Assembly (NCBI GenBank): GCA_013359125.1
Contig: JABWCR010000021.1
Span: 1-54,223, forward strand
Direction of reading: 5' to 3'
Length of the DNA: 54,223 bases
From: Armatimonadota bacterium
Lineage (GTDB): Bacteria > Armatimonadota > Fimbriimonadia > Fimbriimonadales > GBS-DC
In this document: positions 3,372-40,034 of the stretch, piece after piece
Layout: each line of letters begins with the position of its first letter
How positions within the stretch are numbered: the first letter of the stretch is position 1
The notes under the pieces: generated by a model
The model's database searches: none
What the model saw: the letters and a program-made list of their open reading frames with translations, nothing else
What the model was told of the DNA's origin: nothing
Position numbers and translations under genes: made by a program

Positions 3372-6119
3372 ATGGCCCGCACGCTCTATCTGATCGACGC
3401 CTACGCCCAAATCTTTCGCGCTTACTATGCGATTCGGGGCGGTATGCGCAGCCCGATCACCGGCGAGCCGACGCATGCGGCGTTTGGCATCACTGGCATG
3501 ATGATCAAATTGATGGGACAACTAAAGCCGGACTTTGCCGTCGTTGCCATCGATATGCCGGGCGAGACGTTTCGCGATGAAATGTACGAAGACTACAAAG
3601 GCACTCGCGAAAAGACGCCGGATGATCTGATTACCCAAATCCCGCGCATTTTTGACATCTTTGCCGGCTTCGGGCTGCCAGTGATCGGATCGCCAGGCTT
3701 GGAGGCGGACGATGTGATCGCCACCATCGTCAACCGCGTGCTGTCCGATCCGAATCTAAGCGATGTCCACATCCGCCTCGTTTCTAAAGACAAAGACCTT
3801 GAGCAACTGCTGTGCGATCGCGTCGCGATGTTCGACATTCATACCGACGAAGTTCTAGATGTCGACGGGCTGAGGGAAAAGAAGGGCATTTCGCCCGACC
3901 AGGTGATCGACCTGCTGACCATGACCGGCGACAGCAGCGACAACGTGCCGGGCGTGGCGGGCATCGGCGTTAAGACCGCAGCGCAGTTGATCCAGGAGTT
4001 CGGCTCGCTGGACGGCATCTATCAGAACCTGGACAAACTGACGCCCAAAAAGCGAGAGGCCTTCGAAGAGGCCAAAGCCCATATCGAGATGTCCCGGCGA
4101 TTGGTTACATTAGAACGGAACGGTCCGTTCGAGTTCGATCTGGAGGCCGCCCGCGCCAAGACGCCCGATTTGTCCAAACTGTTGCCGCTGTTCAAAGAAT
4201 TGGGCTTTAACCGCTATCAGGACGAGGTTAAGAAGCTGGGCGGACCGGCCCAGCCTCAGCAATCGCTGCTCGATCTGGAGCCGCCCGTTGTAACCCAAGA
4301 GCGCGGCGAGTATCAGACCATTAGCACGGAGAAAGAACTGACCGATCTGCTGGATCGCTTGGCAAACTGCCCCATCGTCGCCTTCGACACCGAAACGACC
4401 GGCCTGGAAAAGGATGCCGAACTGTGCGGGATCAGCCTCAGTTGGGAGGAAGGGCGCGGTGCCTATATCCCCATGCTCTCGCCCGAGCCGAGCAAGCACC
4501 TAGACCCGCAGGCTGTGTTGGATAAAGTCAAACCGTTCCTAGAAAACGAAGCCGTATCCAAGTGCGGCCACAACATCAAATTCGACGCTCGGCAACTGCT
4601 AAAGCACGGCATTCGAACCATGGGCGCCCAATTCGATACGATGCTGGCGGGCATTCTCATCGATCCGGCGCAAAGCTCGCAGAAGTTGGATCATCTGGCA
4701 GACATGCTGTTGGGCTACAAGATGATCCCCATCACCGATCTGATCGGCGCGGGCAAAGAGCAAGGCTCGATGGCCGATGTGCCCTTGGACAAGATCGCCG
4801 TCTATGCCGCCGAGGACGCCGACATCGCCCTGCGCCTGCGCGCCCGCCTAAAGCCCCAGATAGAGGCAATGGAGATGGCGCGGCTGTTGGAGGAAGTCGA
4901 ATCGCCCCTTTCGGTCGCTATCGCAGAGATGGAGCACACGGGCATACTGTGCGATCCGGACGAACTGCTCCAACAGGGCAAGATTTTGGAAGCCCGCGCC
5001 GCCGAGCTCAAACAGCAAGTGTTCGACGCAGTCGGCGAGGAGTTCTCTATCGAATCGACCCGGCAGTTGGCCGAGGTGCTCTTCGACAAACTCGGGTTCA
5101 AGTCGGTTAAGAACACCAAGACCGGACGCAGCACCGACATTGAAGTTTTGGAAACTTTAGCCGCTCAAGAAGACAAGGGCGATCCGAAATCGGCCGTGCC
5201 GCGATTGCTGATCGAGTATCGCCAGTTGCAGAAGCTGATCAGCACCTATCTGGGCAATCTGCGCGATGCGATCGACCCTAAAGACGGGCGCATTCACAGC
5301 ACGTTTCATCAATTGGTGGCTGCGACGGGCCGGTTGGCCTCACAAAACCCGAATCTTCAAAACATCCCCGTGCGCACCGATGTGGGCCGTCAGATTCGAA
5401 AGGCCTTTGTGGCGCCTCCCGGGTGGTCGCTGATTTGCGCGGACTACTCTCAGATCGAGCTTCGGGTTCTGGCGCACTTTAGCCAGGACGAGGCACTGTT
5501 AGAGGCCTTTAAGCGCGACGAGGATATCCATGCGGCGGTGGCTTCGCAGGTGTTCAATGTGCCGCTCGACAGCGTCAGCCGTCAGCAGCGAGACCGCGCC
5601 AAAACGATCAACTTTGGCATCATCTACGGCGTGACTCCTTATGGCCTGTCGCGCCGGATCGAAGGCCTGGAAGTAAGCGATGCGGCCAAACTGATCGACG
5701 ACTATAAGGCCAAGTTCTCGGGCATTGCGACCTTTATGGAGGAGTGTATCCAACAGGCGCTACAGCACGGCTATGTCTCAACGATCTTGGGGCGGCGCAG
5801 AGCCATACCCGAGATTGTGTCGCCCAACCGGAACACCCGCGCATTGGGCGAGCGGCTGGCTATTAACACCGTTGTGCAAGGCAGCGCGGCGGATTTGATC
5901 AAGGTGGCGATGGTCAATCTCTGGCGGCGCGTGGTGCATGAGGGGCTTCCCATGCGACTCTTGCTACAGATTCACGACGAGCTGATCTTCGAGGCGCCGG
6001 ACGAGAAGGCGTCTGCTATGGCGGAGATTGTGCGGGCTGAGATGGAGCGCGCGCTTGAGCTTCGCGCGCCCCTAAAGGCCGAGGCCGGCCTCGGCAAAGA
6101 CTGGCTTTCGGCGAAGTAG
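3372..6119 (+). CDS. polA: DNA polymerase I
   Basis: 915 residues with all three Pol I domains. The 5'-3' exonuclease (about 1-290) has the [13 protein letters not shown] and [10 protein letters not shown] motifs. The proofreading 3'-5' exonuclease (about 310-500) keeps D339/E341 in AFDTETTGL, the [10 protein letters not shown] motif and YAAED, so it looks active. The polymerase (about 520-915) has motif [10 protein letters not shown] (about 691), O-helix motif [13 protein letters not shown] and motif C HDE at 868-870. It acts in Okazaki-fragment processing and repair. A TTGAAT lies 5 bases before the ATG and could be a weak -10. The gene starts divergently from hisF with 54 bases between them. 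Confidence 0.98.
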
Positions 6120-6594
6120 GGGGGTGCATTGGAACGCCAGGCTTCTGCCTGGCTTGGTGCCGTCTCGAACCTCGGCCACCAAATTCGAGCCGGTTTGTAT
6201 TCAATGCCTCCTTCTTCTCTTGTTGTCATCTCTCAATCTATTATCTGCCTTACGCCAAGATTCCTGCTTTCGGCGCCTTCCCCTTGAAAGGACGTGTGAG
6301 AGCGGGCTGGTCAACCTTCAACCTGCTAAACCCTCCACACCAAACGGCGGGTGCGGAGGGATTGAAGTCTGTCAATGTACCGCCAGCGTCCTCGCTGGCG
6401 GATGTTCGGACCGCCGGGACGGCGGCGGTATTTTGAGAGAATCTGTTGATGCTCTCTGCACAGGCCGCCTATTGCCTGCGCAGGGTCTGATTCGTACTCA
6501 AAATTGTGCTACATTTGCACAGATTCCCGTTTGGCTCGCGGGGACGCTCGCCCTCCCAAAATGTTTATCAAGGGCCAACCGCCCGGGAGGGCGA
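6120..6594. repeat. Gene-free stretch filled with palindromic repeat modules
   Basis: No convincing gene. Recognised modules in order: GGAACGCCAGGC/GCCTGGC hairpin (6131-6153); CCCTCC...GGAGGG hairpin (6331-6360); TACCGCCAGCG/CGCTGGCG hairpin (6377-6400) followed by an inverted partner ending GGCGGCGGTA; one 44-bp module A (6489-6532); GCGGGGACGCTCGCCCTCCC module (6536-6557). The segment 6155-6320 between modules shows no feature I can name. It separates polA from a minus-strand operon that converges on it. Confidence 0.75.
6489..6532 (+). repeat. 44-bp interspersed module A, copy 2
   Basis: Consensus orientation, GATTCGTACTC to CCCGTTT. It differs from the 43032 copy by only about two bases and is followed at once by the GCGGGGACGCTC module. 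Confidence 0.85.
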
Positions 6595-34910: not shown

Positions 34911-34935
34911 GGAGCGCGTCGGCTTGCCGACGCTA
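34911..34935 (+). repeat. REP-like palindrome flanking the RAYT gene, left copy
   Basis: GGAGCGCGTCGGCTTGCCGA plus CGCTA contains the perfect palindrome GTCGGC-TT-GCCGAC. It matches the reverse complement of 35560-35584 at 22 of 25 positions. The RAYT stop codon lies inside it. Confidence 0.8.
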
Positions 34936-35490
34936 AAAATCGTCCGGCACTCTTATCAAATCGTACTTAAACGATGTAACCGTCTTGACGTACGAATCGG
35001 GATACCCTTGTTCCATCCACGCATAAGAACACCAGCGATACATCCGCGGATGTTTTTGATAACCATGTCGAACAGGGTTAGCATGCACATAGTGCAACCT
35101 TGCATAGAGCGCCTTGTCCGAGCCTATGATGGTGTCCCAGTATTGCCACCAAACTTGGCAACCCGGTTCGCTGTGAATTCGGTTTATCTCGCGCGCCGAT
35201 TTCGAATGGATAGACCTTATCAACGCGGTCAGGTCGCACTTCTCGGGAGAAATCCCAACAAAGTGATAGTGGTTTGAAAATACTGCCCAAGCTTCGAGCC
35301 GCCACTCGTGGGCTTCAGCTTCTCCGAGCAAGGTGGCGAGTAGTATGTTTCGTTCGTCTGCGCTCCGGAACAATCTCGCCTTCTGGTATGTGGCTCCGGT
35401 TACAATGTAGTGGCGATTCGGTTCAAAGACGTGCGGCGGCTGATGCGGCCAAGTAATGACACGGGTTGAGCGTTCTGCGTCCATAAACAC
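34933..35490 (-). CDS. REP-associated tyrosine transposase (RAYT, Y1_Tnp)
   Basis: 185 residues, the usual RAYT size. The HUH metal motif is visible at H74/H76 in VFSNHYHFVGI. The downstream ARLHYVHANPVRHGY phrase matches the conserved YxHxNPV region of these single-strand transposases, with Tyr129 or Tyr134 the likely nucleophile. RAYTs are domesticated IS200/IS605 relatives linked to spreading of REP palindromes. Here the gene is framed by inverted REP-like palindromes (34911-34935 and 35560-35584), consistent with its own substrate. It sits between pcrA and a cysteine desulfurase gene. Confidence 0.92.
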   Translation of the reverse strand: MFMDAERSTRVITWPHQPPHVFEPNRHYIVTGATYQKARLFRSADERNILLATLLGEAEAHEWRLEAWAVFSNHYHFVGISPEKCDLTALIRSIHSKSAREINRIHSEPGCQVWWQYWDTIIGSDKALYARLHYVHANPVRHGYQKHPRMYRWCSYAWMEQGYPDSYVKTVTSFKYDLIRVPDDF

Positions 35491-35590: not shown

Positions 35591-36724
35591 TTACAACAAA
35601 TCCCTCAAACTCTCCAAAAGCGCAACGACAGCCTGATCGATCTGGGCTTCGTCGTTCAGTTTGCCCACGGTCAGGCGCAGGCTGCCCTCTTGGCGTTCGG
35701 GCGGTAAACCCAATGCCGCGACGGCGCCGCTGACGCCGCCCATGCCGCTATGGCAGGCCGATCCCGCCGACGCGCAAACCCCTCGGCGATCCAATGCCGC
35801 TACCAGCGCATCGCCCTGAACGCCCACAAATGTGAAGTGCGCGTTGTGCGGCGTTCTGTGCGTCATCGAGCCGGTCAGTTGCGCGGTCGGCGCGCGCTCC
35901 AATACTTGCTTTATCAGACGATCGCGCAGGCGAGCCAGGCGAGGCGCCTCGTCCTCCATCTCTGCATCGGCCAATGCCGCCGCCATGCCCAAGCCCACGA
36001 TGCCCGGCACGTTGTGCGTGCCCCCGCGCCGTCCGCGCTCCTGCTCTCCGCCCGTCTGAAAAGGCAACATTCGACAACCCTTGCGCACATAGAGCGCCCC
36101 AATGCCTTTAGGTCCATATATCTTGTGCCCAGACAACGACAACAGATCGACATTCAGCGCGTCGACGCAGATCGGCAGTTTGCCCACTGTCTGCACCGCG
36201 TCGGTATGGAACGGTATCCCGTTCAGTTTTGCAATCCGCGCCAATTCTGGAATCGGCTGCACCGTGCCGATCTCGTTATTAGCGTGCATGATCGTAATCA
36301 GCACGGTGTCCGGCCTTATCGCCGCCTCCAATTCTTTCGGACTTACGCGCCCTTCTCCGTCAACCCCCAGGTAGGTAACTTCGTATCCGTCGTGCTCGAG
36401 CTTCTTGCAGGCTTGTTTGACGGCGCCGTGCTCGATTTTGGAGGTTACAATGTGCCGCCCTTTGCCTTTAGAGGCGCAGACCGTGCCGAAAATGGCTAGA
36501 TTGTCCGCCTCGGTGCCGCCGCTGGTGAAGACGATCTCGGCAGGCGATGCCGCGCCGATCAGCGTTGCGATCTGCTCTCGCGCCGTTTCGACCGCCTCGC
36601 GCGATTGTCGCCCGCAACAGTGGATGGAAGAGGGGTTGCCAAAGCAATCGCAAAAGTAGGGCAGCATCGCGTCCAGAACGCGCTTGTCGACCGGCGTCGT
36701 GGCAGCGTGGTCAAGGTAGATCAT
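35591..36724 (-). CDS. Cysteine desulfurase (NifS/IscS family)
   Basis: 377 residues, PLP fold-type I. IYLDHAATTPVDKRV start, FTSGGTEADNLAI, HANNEIGTVQPI, HTDAVQTVGK. The Schiff-base lysine is K201 in SLSGHKIYGPKG, and the catalytic cysteine is C324 in CASAGSACHSG on a longer loop as in group I enzymes. It supplies sulfane sulfur for Fe-S clusters or thio-modified tRNA. It starts 7 bases after the MarR gene and so is probably controlled by it. No iscU or mnmA is adjacent. Confidence 0.95.
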   Translation of the reverse strand: MIYLDHAATTPVDKRVLDAMLPYFCDCFGNPSSIHCCGRQSREAVETAREQIATLIGAASPAEIVFTSGGTEADNLAIFGTVCASKGKGRHIVTSKIEHGAVKQACKKLEHDGYEVTYLGVDGEGRVSPKELEAAIRPDTVLITIMHANNEIGTVQPIPELARIAKLNGIPFHTDAVQTVGKLPICVDALNVDLLSLSGHKIYGPKGIGALYVRKGCRMLPFQTGGEQERGRRGGTHNVPGIVGLGMAAALADAEMEDEAPRLARLRDRLIKQVLERAPTAQLTGSMTHRTPHNAHFTFVGVQGDALVAALDRRGVCASAGSACHSGMGGVSGAVAALGLPPERQEGSLRLTVGKLNDEAQIDQAVVALLESLRDLL

Positions 36725-36731
36725 CGCTTGA

Positions 36732-37313
36732 TTATCGGCAAAACTCGTCCGGCTGTGTCAGGGCGATGGGACAACAGGGGTCGCTGTCCGATCCGCAATG
36801 CAGGCAGAGCCGGTCGGCCGGCAACAGCCCGCCCTGGATGCCCGCCTCGATAAAGACGTTCAGCCCGTGCAAAAACGATTCGCGGTCGGCGTCGTCCATC
36901 CTGGCCAAGATTGTCGCGAATTGCTTGCGCCGGTCCTGGTCTAGTTTGGCCAGGAGTTCGGCGCCGGAATCCGTGAGCCGGAGTCCTACTTGGCGGCGGT
37001 CTTCGGGCATCTCCTCGCGCCCCACATAGCCTTTTTTCTCCAGGCGGTTGATCATGTTGGTCGCCGATGGGTAGCTGATGTGCAACCCTTCCGCCAAGTC
37101 GCCCACCGTGGCGCTGGCATGACTACCGAGGAATCGCAGCGCCTGAAGCTGAGAGTAAGTAATGTCGGTATGCGAGAGGGTCTCGAGCGCTCGCTCGCCC
37201 ATGGTGTGGTAGATGGCGCGGATAAAGATGGCGGCCGCCCGCTCCGCTCGGGCGAGCAGTTCGTCGGACAACGCCATTTTCAGGCGCAACTGGGCGGGCG
37301 AATCGACGGGCAT
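36732..37313 (-). CDS. MarR-family regulator with a five-cysteine C-terminal tail
   Basis: 193 residues. The winged-helix MarR core (about 40-135) includes LQALRFLGSHASATVGDLAEGLHIS, the recognition helix region YPSATNMINRLEKKGYV and the wing EEMPEDRRQVGLRLTDSG. The last 24 residues carry all five cysteines: C170-x2-C173-x6-C180-C181-x10-C192. That spacing suggests a metal or Fe-S site or a redox sensor. It directly precedes a cysteine desulfurase gene in the same operon, so sensing sulfur or Fe-S status is a fair inference. A palindrome over its own promoter suggests autoregulation. Confidence 0.85.
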   Translation of the reverse strand: MPVDSPAQLRLKMALSDELLARAERAAAIFIRAIYHTMGERALETLSHTDITYSQLQALRFLGSHASATVGDLAEGLHISYPSATNMINRLEKKGYVGREEMPEDRRQVGLRLTDSGAELLAKLDQDRRKQFATILARMDDADRESFLHGLNVFIEAGIQGGLLPADRLCLHCGSDSDPCCPIALTQPDEFCR

Positions 37314-37317
37314 TGGA

Positions 37318-37331
37318 ACTAAATTAGTATA
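37318..37331 (-). promoter_or_regulatory. MarR promoter with overlapping palindromic operator
   Basis: The -10-like TATACT (complement of 37326-37331) lies 12 bases before ATG 37313. The perfect 11-base palindrome ACTAAATTAGT (37318-37328) overlaps it and the expected start point, the placement of an autorepressing operator. Confidence 0.5.
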
Positions 37332-37423
37332 CCATGGGTTTAGGTAAGCAGGAATCGCCGCTCATCGCGGAGAATGTATCTATTGCGAGGGCTTCGAGGA
37401 AGTCGTCGCAAAGGAGGACCATC

Positions 37424-38329
37424 ATGGTGCGTCGTGGATTTACCCTTATCGAATTGCTTGTCGTCATTGCCATCATCGCAATCCTGGCCGCGATTCTCTT
37501 TCCTGTCTTTGCGGCAGCCCGAGAGAGCGCCCGACAAATCGACTGCCAAAGCCGATTCTATCAGGCTGGGCGGGCGCTTGTTATGTACATGGCAGACAAC
37601 GACAGCTACCACCCCCCGACCCAATACTACGCTGCATGGGCTGGCCAGTACAACCCTCAGGACATGATCCTGGCCATGCTGATGCAGCCATACATCAAGA
37701 ACTGGACCACATGGCGCTGCCCTTCGGATCCTAACGCCACCGACTACATCCTAGGTCGATGCAACGATCGGAACCCTGGTTCATTGCACGAGAAGCTTTA
37801 CTGCTGGTCGTTGACTACCGATCTTGGCTACAACTACGCCTACCTCAGTCCGATCGTTCGCTACGGCTCGGTTTGGCAGAACAACCCTGCCCACGAAACG
37901 AAAATCGTAAAGCCGGGCGCTACCGTAATGTTCGTGGACAGCATCTGGTTTAGAAACACCCTCACGCGACTGCCTGAGGGCGGCGGAAACTGGATCGTTA
38001 TGCCGCCGTGCCGTTTCTATCAGGCTCCGGGGTCTTCAGCCCGCATCGATACTTTCACTCAGCTATACCACCCTACCGCCAATGCATGGTACGACTATGG
38101 AAGCGCTTGCTGGCGGCTTCAAACGGCGACCGGCTGGTATCTCTGGATGGAGTTTGGCGGGACTTGGCCTTGGCATCGGAACGAGAGGATGATGGTCTCG
38201 TTTGTGGATACCCACGCAAAGCCATACACGCCAAGGCAGCTGACGGTCGGCTGCAACGCGTTGCCGATGTGTCAGGGCAACATCACCGATCCGGACGCCT
38301 ATCTGTGGGACATGGACAACTACTATTAA
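37424..38329 (+). CDS. Type II secretion/type IV pilin-like pseudopilin (DUF1559-type)
   Basis: 301 residues starting [29 protein letters not shown], a perfect class III prepilin signal cleaved between G and F with the conserved Glu at +5. The mature part is a large globular domain rich in Trp/Tyr/Cys, ending in [20 protein letters not shown], reminiscent of the H-x9-DG-like C-terminal motif of DUF1559 proteins. Such proteins are multiplied in Armatimonadota and Planctomycetota; their role is unknown. AAGGAGG lies six bases before the ATG. Confidence 0.9.
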
Positions 38330-38654: not shown

Positions 38655-40034
38655 ATGCCTGAACTTCGCCTGCTACTAAAGCACGCCGACCATCCCGAAT
38701 CGACCGAGATCGACTTCTACAAAGCCAACGGCGGCTATCAAGCCCTCGAAAAAGCGCTCAAGACCGACCGTCAGGAGATTATCGAAGAGATCAAGAAATC
38801 GGGTTTGAGAGGTCGCGGCGGGGCGGGCTTCCCCACTTGGATCAAGTGGAACGGCATCCCCAAGGACGAAAGCAAACCCCACTATGTGCTGTGCAACGCC
38901 GACGAGGGCGAGCCGGGCACGTTCAAAGATTGGGAACTGATGCGGCGCACGCCTCACCAGTTGGTCGAAGGCATGGCGATCGCGGGCTATGCGACGCTCT
39001 CTAAGACGGGCATCGTCTACATTCGCGGCGAGTTCGTCGAGGCTGCCCAAGCGATGCGCCGCGCCATCGATCAGGCCTACAAAGCGGGCTATTTGGGCAA
39101 GAACATATTGAACAGCGGCGTCGATTTCGATCTTCACATCCACATGGGCGCGGGATCGTACGAGTGCGGCGAAGAATCGGCCATGATGTCGAGCGTGATG
39201 GGCGAGCGCGGCATGCCCCGTCTCAAGTTTCCTCATGTGCCCCTTCCCACCATCAGCGGCCTTTGGGAGAGCCCAACGCTGATCAACAACGTCGAGACCT
39301 TTTGTTGCGCGCCGCACATTATAACGAACGGCGGCGAGTGGTACGCGCAGATGGGCGCATCGACCAAGAACAGCCGCGGTACCAAGATCTTTAGCGTCAG
39401 CGGGCATGTGGCCAAGCCCGGCAACTACGAGATCGAGTTTGGAACGCCACTTTTGGAACTGGTGCAACTGGCGGGCGGCATGACGGGCGGCGGGCTAAAG
39501 GCGATCATCCCGGGCGGGAGTTCGGTGCAGATCATGCCGGCGGAGAATTGCGCCGAGGCGATCGTCGGCTATGAGGAGCTTTGGGACAAGGGCAGCATGG
39601 TTGGCTCGGGCGGCATGATGGTCTTAAACGAGCACACCTGCATTGTAACCTTTATGTGGCGGACGACCGAGTTTTACGCGCACGAATCGTGCGGCAAATG
39701 CACGCCGTGCCGCGAGGGCACGCGCTGGATGGCGCAGATTTATGACCGCATTTTGGAAGGCAAGGGGCGACCGGACGACATCGACGTTCTGTTGGAAATC
39801 TGCGGACAGATCGACGGACGAAGCTTTTGCGGCCTAGGCGATGCGGCTGCCTGGCCCGTGGTCGCCAGCATCAAGCATTATCGCCACGAGTACGAACACT
39901 TTATCCAGCATGGCCGATCGATGCTGGCCGACCGGCCGGAAACCCAGGCGATGATGCCTTACAAAGGCTACAAGCGGTACGACCCGTTTCGATACGAGGT
40001 TACATTTGGCGGGCATCGGCTCGCTCGAACTTGA
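38655..40034 (+). CDS. nuoF: NADH-quinone oxidoreductase subunit F (NuoF)
   Basis: 459 residues of the NADH/FMN-binding subunit. LRGRGGAGFPTWIKWN and NADEGEPGTFKDWELM form the NADH and FMN sites; SLBB-like GHVAKPGNYEIEFGTPLLELV follows. The N3 [4Fe-4S] ligands are C346, C349, C352 (SCGKCTPCREG) and C392 (SFCGLGDAAAWP). The usual CGEETALIESLEG stretch reads CGEESAMMSSVMG, a mild divergence. No nuoE or nuoG is adjacent. A TAAAAT at 38619-38624 and GGAGG at 38645-38649 form a normal promoter/SD pair. Its end overlaps the convergent glycosidase gene by 35 bases. Confidence 0.95.
   Translation: MPELRLLLKHADHPESTEIDFYKANGGYQALEKALKTDRQEIIEEIKKSGLRGRGGAGFPTWIKWNGIPKDESKPHYVLCNADEGEPGTFKDWELMRRTPHQLVEGMAIAGYATLSKTGIVYIRGEFVEAAQAMRRAIDQAYKAGYLGKNILNSGVDFDLHIHMGAGSYECGEESAMMSSVMGERGMPRLKFPHVPLPTISGLWESPTLINNVETFCCAPHIITNGGEWYAQMGASTKNSRGTKIFSVSGHVAKPGNYEIEFGTPLLELVQLAGGMTGGGLKAIIPGGSSVQIMPAENCAEAIVGYEELWDKGSMVGSGGMMVLNEHTCIVTFMWRTTEFYAHESCGKCTPCREGTRWMAQIYDRILEGKGRPDDIDVLLEICGQIDGRSFCGLGDAAAWPVVASIKHYRHEYEHFIQHGRSMLADRPETQAMMPYKGYKRYDPFRYEVTFGGHRLART

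Follow-up and report, generated by a model that had tools for sequence, protein, structure and literature searches.

The window analysed here, a stretch of 54,223 nucleotides from a genome of the phylum Armatimonadota, carries a gene for a MarR-family regulator directly followed by a gene for a cysteine desulfurase (Table 1). The first-pass annotation had described this adjacency, and both open reading frames were confirmed on the minus strand, 7 bp apart. The desulfurase contains the class V domain of the PLP aminotransferases (Aminotran_5, PF00266, E = 4e-83). It passed the cut-off of the subfamily model NF002806 (318.6 bits, cut-off 304) and just missed that of the narrower model TIGR03402 (E = 4.5e-149, 496 bits against a cut-off of 531). 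Directly downstream of nifS lies an IS200/Y1-type transposase gene (34933-35490, minus strand). On the other side of the pair, a type IV prepilin-like gene is transcribed divergently (37424-38329, plus strand; its start, which follows AAAGGAGG, is probably at 37424). Further on lies a gene for a NuoF-type flavoprotein lookalike (38655-40034, plus strand), itself probably an Fe-S protein.

Table 1. Features of the regulator locus, predicted sites elsewhere in the same genome and paralogue pairs used in the analysis
Feature	Position	Strand	Basis or remark
NifS/IscS-type cysteine desulfurase, 377 aa	35591..36724	-	7 bp downstream of the regulator gene; Pfam and subfamily profiles
MarR-family regulator, 193 aa	36732..37313	-	ORF and Pfam profiles, AlphaFold2, Foldseek
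Cysteine tail CX2CX7CX10C (residues 170-192), putative binding site for a cluster or metal	36738..36806	-	conserved in relatives
Recognition helix SYPSATNMINRLEK, residues 80-93, with N86	37035..37076	-	residue 86 covaries with operator half-sites
Palindrome ACTAAATTAGT, 5+1+5 bp	37318..37328	.	named in the first-pass annotation; probably chance
Operator place of sister genera, degenerate here (ACCTAAACCCATGGTATACTA)	37325..37345	-	motif scores
TATACT, -10-like box of the regulator promoter	37326..37331	-	sequence; sister operators overlap TATAC(T) at the same place
Own-genome sufS site TAATTTAGCCAGGCTAAACAA	2 bp before sufS		sufS, then a sufU-like gene
Own-genome sufB site TTATTTTACCATGCTAAATAA	about 34-38 bp before sufB		heads sufB-sufC-sufD-sufU
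Own-genome feoB site TTGTTTAGCATGGCTAAATGT	23 bp before feoB		
Fourth own-genome site, L251	G000:C4:142684		perfect operator across the start codon of a gene for an exported repeat protein
Paralogue pairs in three genomes: L135/L150, L136/L157, L159/L161			differing helices, Fe-S operons and operators

A Pfam search assigned the regulator to MarR (E = 4e-15), and two MarR helix-turn-helix profiles exceeded their curated cut-offs (PF01047, 55.8 bits against 24.6; PF12802, 56.1 against 27). The AlphaFold2 monomer model (mean pLDDT 83) has the MarR fold; in the model and its Foldseek comparison, a winged helix is combined with N- and C-terminal helices, which would form the dimer domain. The closest solved structures were YusO and MepR (TM score for YusO 0.83 by target length). 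Other identities were considered and discarded: the SufR model TIGR02702 scored 15.8 bits against a cut-off of 178.8, the AdcR-type zinc MarR model NF038251 scored 17 bits against 175, and Rrf2 (PF02082), the family of IscR, was not among the Pfam families found at E 0.001.

The regulator has only five cysteines, C170, C173, C180, C181 and C192. Their confinement to the last 24 residues, as first read from the sequence, was borne out by the translation of the open reading frame. In 12 diverse relatives the tail aligned gap-free as CX2CX7CX10C, with C170, C173, C181 and C192 invariant, and C180 was replaced by other residues in most relatives. The conserved set is thus four of the five cysteines. 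Loss of the tail from orthologues, which the first-pass annotation had named as an observation that would speak against its idea, is not what we found in general, since these four cysteines are kept and a His/Cys exchange runs through the phylum. Most other classes have the tail CX2CGX2HX3C, which lacks the terminal Cys. Among 88 aligned sequences, the loop His occurs in 42 and the terminal Cys in 32, never both together; 11 have neither and 3 have no tail. Such mutual exclusion is as expected of ligands to one common metal or cluster. Few changes are needed to explain it on a tree built from the core domain only, where all Cys4 sequences form one clade (support 100/93). In three sequences with neither ligand (L126-L128), His residues stand close to where the terminal Cys would be, and two members of family f5 (L047 and L049) have lost the Cys tail and kept the nifS neighbour, which makes them natural tail-less variants. 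AlphaFold2 predicts for the tail a small knuckle with two short helices. Among the solved MarR sequences listed, none matched the tail and none aligned past profile position 154, so that this part of the protein is structurally unseen. Judged from its sequence, the tail most likely holds an Fe-S cluster, a reading favoured by the ligand exchange and by the regulon described below; zinc is possible too.

One orthologue per genome was present in 17 of 17 same-family genomes searched, mostly at 51-55% identity. Relatives occur throughout Armatimonadota (114 of 291 genomes at E 1e-15, partly more distant MarR proteins), those with names including Fimbriimonadales MAGs, Bacterium HR15, Chthonomonas and other Chthonomonadales. 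The large family f3 of the same order gave only weak matches, of the ordinary MarR kind. Outside the window's family, 59 of 74 non-redundant loci carry a co-directional Fe-S assembly gene after the regulator; it is nifS, iscU (often with nfu), mrp or sufC, and representative neighbours were confirmed by Pfam (NifU_N, NifU, FeS_assembly_P/NUBPL). Inside the family, nifS follows the regulator in the window species only (1 of 13 loci), and no Fe-S neighbour was found in the 12 sister-family loci examined. The nifS linkage is common elsewhere in the order and in the phylum.

A palindromic motif search on 85 regulator promoters returned TTATTTA(A/G)CC.GG(T/C)TAAATAA, a putative operator found upstream of the regulator across the phylum, with the form TTTAGCnnnGCTAAA in the window's family. 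At a shuffle p of 0.05, 62 of 88 regulator promoters match, an overestimate, since this promoter set also served to learn the motif. The independent test therefore used promoters other than those of the regulator, with a model trained on regulator promoters only. This model matched the suf loci of the own genome and of its sister genera in 12 of 12 cases, at 18-22 bits, the next-best separate site in each locus scoring about 12 bits or lower. In f3, a family without the regulator, the 12 suf loci scored at most 7.4 bits; those of f2, f4 and f5 reached at most 11.5 bits, and the motif was absent from the f2 and f5 suf promoters. A reversed-sequence control gave 4 matches at 18 bits or more in 1.5 Mb. 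In the sister genera, 7-20 bp separate the suf sites from the sufC or sufD start codon, and the operators of the regulator promoters run into the -10-like box; these positions suggest repression. We also noted, in a member of Candidatus Aerophobetes (L081, about 6001-6321), a MarR protein that lacks the tail and has a similar helix (TYPSATNM); just upstream of its gene stands a perfect palindrome of 23 bp, TTTATTTAGACTAACTAAATAAA, which resembles the Armatimonadota operator.

In the window itself, autoregulation had been proposed from the perfect palindrome ACTAAATTAGT, a few bp upstream of the regulator start codon and overlapping the TATACT box. The palindrome exists, but when the 110-bp intergenic stretch is shuffled, 8.8% of the shuffled versions contain a 5+1+5 palindrome, and there are 55 such palindromes in the whole window, so that this one carries little weight alone. 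It is also unlike the conserved operator of the relatives, its TTAG/CTAA arms facing outward, opposite to the conserved half-sites, and we rejected it as an operator. The conserved operator was not found in this promoter either (motif score -0.6, shuffle p 0.45; -3.8 with the family-specific model). The window regulator sits on a long branch (0.75, against about 0.02-0.2 in the sister sequences) and its SYPSATN helix is unchanged. Considered together, the long branch, the unchanged helix and the lack of a recognisable operator of its own suggest that the window copy may no longer regulate its own gene, with suf, sufS and feoB still among its targets.

Genome-wide, a pattern search of the own genome (2.8 Mb) returned four exact sites, three of which precede sufS, sufB and feoB (Table 1). 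A site precedes feoB in 5 of the 5 genera checked, the own genus and four sister genera. Sister-genus sites also stand before sufC, sufD, cysteine synthase (in two genera), rhodanese, mrp, an A-type carrier, a Rieske protein, an ABM-domain protein and the regulator itself; the remaining ones are at unrelated genes or in repeats. The operator is thus found at Fe-S assembly genes both in the own genome (sufB, sufS) and in sister genera (suf). Total site counts in the sister genomes were not generally above those of reversed-pattern controls; for this reason we discarded raw counts and used only the positions of the sites as evidence. The distant genome G170 has a perfect palindrome 174 bp upstream of mrp, and its regulator-sufC pair is preceded by a double site. 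Operator-like sequences also occur in a repeated element of the sister genome G003 (L287, G003:C1:152400-154200, and other sites), with fixed spacings of 77 and 116 bp, and several contigs of G006 end in a repeat with TTTAGCATGGCTAAA; these are possibly decoy sites or coincidence.

Residue 86 of the recognition helix covaries with the operator half-sites. In a residue-base table whose statistics ignore kinship, Gln86 pairs with TTAAG (39 of 44 half-sites), Lys86 with TAACC (C in 20 of 22) and Asn86 with a base other than A at the first variable position (29 of 30, as TTAGC or TTATC). Column-wise mutual information was abandoned as a means to single out this residue, because phylogeny makes many columns score high, and the argument rests instead on the table and on paralogue pairs. 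In each of the genomes G227, G228 and G229, a Lys paralogue adjoins nifS and has a TAACC operator, and a Gln paralogue adjoins mrp-iscU and has a TTAAG operator. Such pairs within one genome make a third-party binder unlikely.

The operator could nevertheless belong to an Rrf2/IscR-like, DtxR or Fur protein, with the MarR gene merely one of its targets. Rrf2 proteins are common in the phylum, the own genome encodes two three-Cys members, and feoB is a classic Fur or DtxR target. However, each candidate is missing from genomes that keep the operator: G001, G003 (one contig) and most of genus g4 lack DtxR, the own genome lacks Fur, and G221, G225 and G230-233 lack Rrf2. Moreover, the operator varies with the MarR recognition helix even between paralogues of one genome, and f3, which lacks the MarR protein, has no site at suf. 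We regard this possibility as very improbable. Practically negligible is the probability of an ordinary MarR protein beside a chance neighbour, its cysteines and nifS linkage meaningless: the 12 closest relatives examined have no Fe-S neighbour and the palindrome ACTAAATTAGT is at chance level, but linkage to several Fe-S genes extends across the phylum and the own genome carries the operator at sufB, sufS and feoB.

A more serious alternative keeps the same regulon and assigns to the tail a structural zinc ion, the signal being, for instance, ferrous iron, the oxidation of thiols or a persulfide from the desulfurase. Zinc is commonly bound by knuckles of the Cys3His and Cys4 types, the two tail-less members retain their nifS neighbour, and the predicted targets include rhodanese and cysteine synthase. 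Since the core of the regulon is Fe-S assembly and ferrous iron import, we consider the zinc reading unlikely, at roughly one chance in a handful. In the cluster-sensing scheme that we prefer, a MarR dimer would bind the inverted repeat near the starts of sufB(CDU), sufS(U) and feoB; the targets in sister genera would further include cysteine synthase, mrp, the A-type carrier and the regulator gene itself. The knuckle at the C-terminus (Cys4 here, Cys3His in most classes) would carry a labile Fe-S cluster and thereby sense whether clusters are sufficient; the protein would repress when it holds the cluster and, as apo form, would release the supply genes, a direction proposed by analogy with IscR and SufR. 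The family assignment, the conservation of the tail, the gene linkage, the shared operator and the covariation of helix and operator are computed results, whereas direct DNA binding, repression, the cluster and the direction of the switch are inferred. We think it fairly probable that these proteins are an independently evolved and hitherto undescribed class of Fe-S sensors, in which the ligands of the cluster changed from Cys3His to Cys4 about once, which controls iron import, sulfur supply and assembly genes throughout the phylum and whose paralogues, by a change in the recognition helix, split the regulon into nifS and mrp-iscU parts.

Known MarR proteins are mostly drug, small-molecule or redox sensors, and the known repressors of Fe-S assembly come from few families, Rrf2 (IscR, RirA) and SufR. 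To our knowledge, regulation of Fe-S assembly has been described elsewhere only for regulators unrelated to MarR, such as IscR and SufR, and our literature search, whose coverage is incomplete, found no paper on a MarR regulator of this process. With typical members such as YusO, MepR and MarR the regulator shares the fold and the DNA-binding domain, but not, among the listed solved sequences, the tail. The first-pass annotation had seen the IscR-IscS principle realised with an unrelated regulator, an idea supported by the phylum-wide Fe-S neighbours, the operator at sufB, sufS and feoB and the conserved tail. As with IscR, the regulator adjoins a cysteine desulfurase and Fe-S assembly genes are the predicted targets; moreover, the ligand set of IscR is Cys3His and resembles the tails of most Armatimonadota classes. 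Unlike IscR, the protein has a MarR fold with no Rrf2 match, its putative ligands lie in the C-terminal tail, its operator is different and the predicted regulon includes feoB and cysteine synthase.

SufR of cyanobacteria and actinobacteria is described as an autoregulated repressor, with Cys at 203, 216 and 244 in Rv1460 (PMC6034842). It is likewise a winged-helix suf regulator with C-terminal cysteines; however, TIGR02702 is far under its cut-off here and the cysteines form CX2CX7CX10C in the last 24 residues. ArnR of Corynebacterium, a MarR/ArsR-like winged-helix protein, binds [4Fe-4S] through C-terminal Cys ligands (PMC12343034), but its Cys179, 193 and 223 are spaced differently and it controls nitrate respiration and hmp rather than Fe-S assembly. 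SufR and ArnR are the nearest winged-helix Fe-S regulators that we found, and the regulator matches neither in family model and Cys spacing.

We hold it likely that an Armatimonadota-wide MarR subfamily with a labile-cluster tail regulates Fe-S cluster assembly and the supply of iron and sulfur, as a counterpart of IscR and SufR. This would assign a function to genes known merely by a generic MarR profile. A MarR-based Fe-S regulator in a poorly studied phylum, with operator and regulon predicted from sequence, offers testable sites, residues and genes; it also provides, in the His-to-Cys exchange and in the Lys/Gln/Asn operator code, natural experiments on the evolution of cluster sensing and of DNA specificity.
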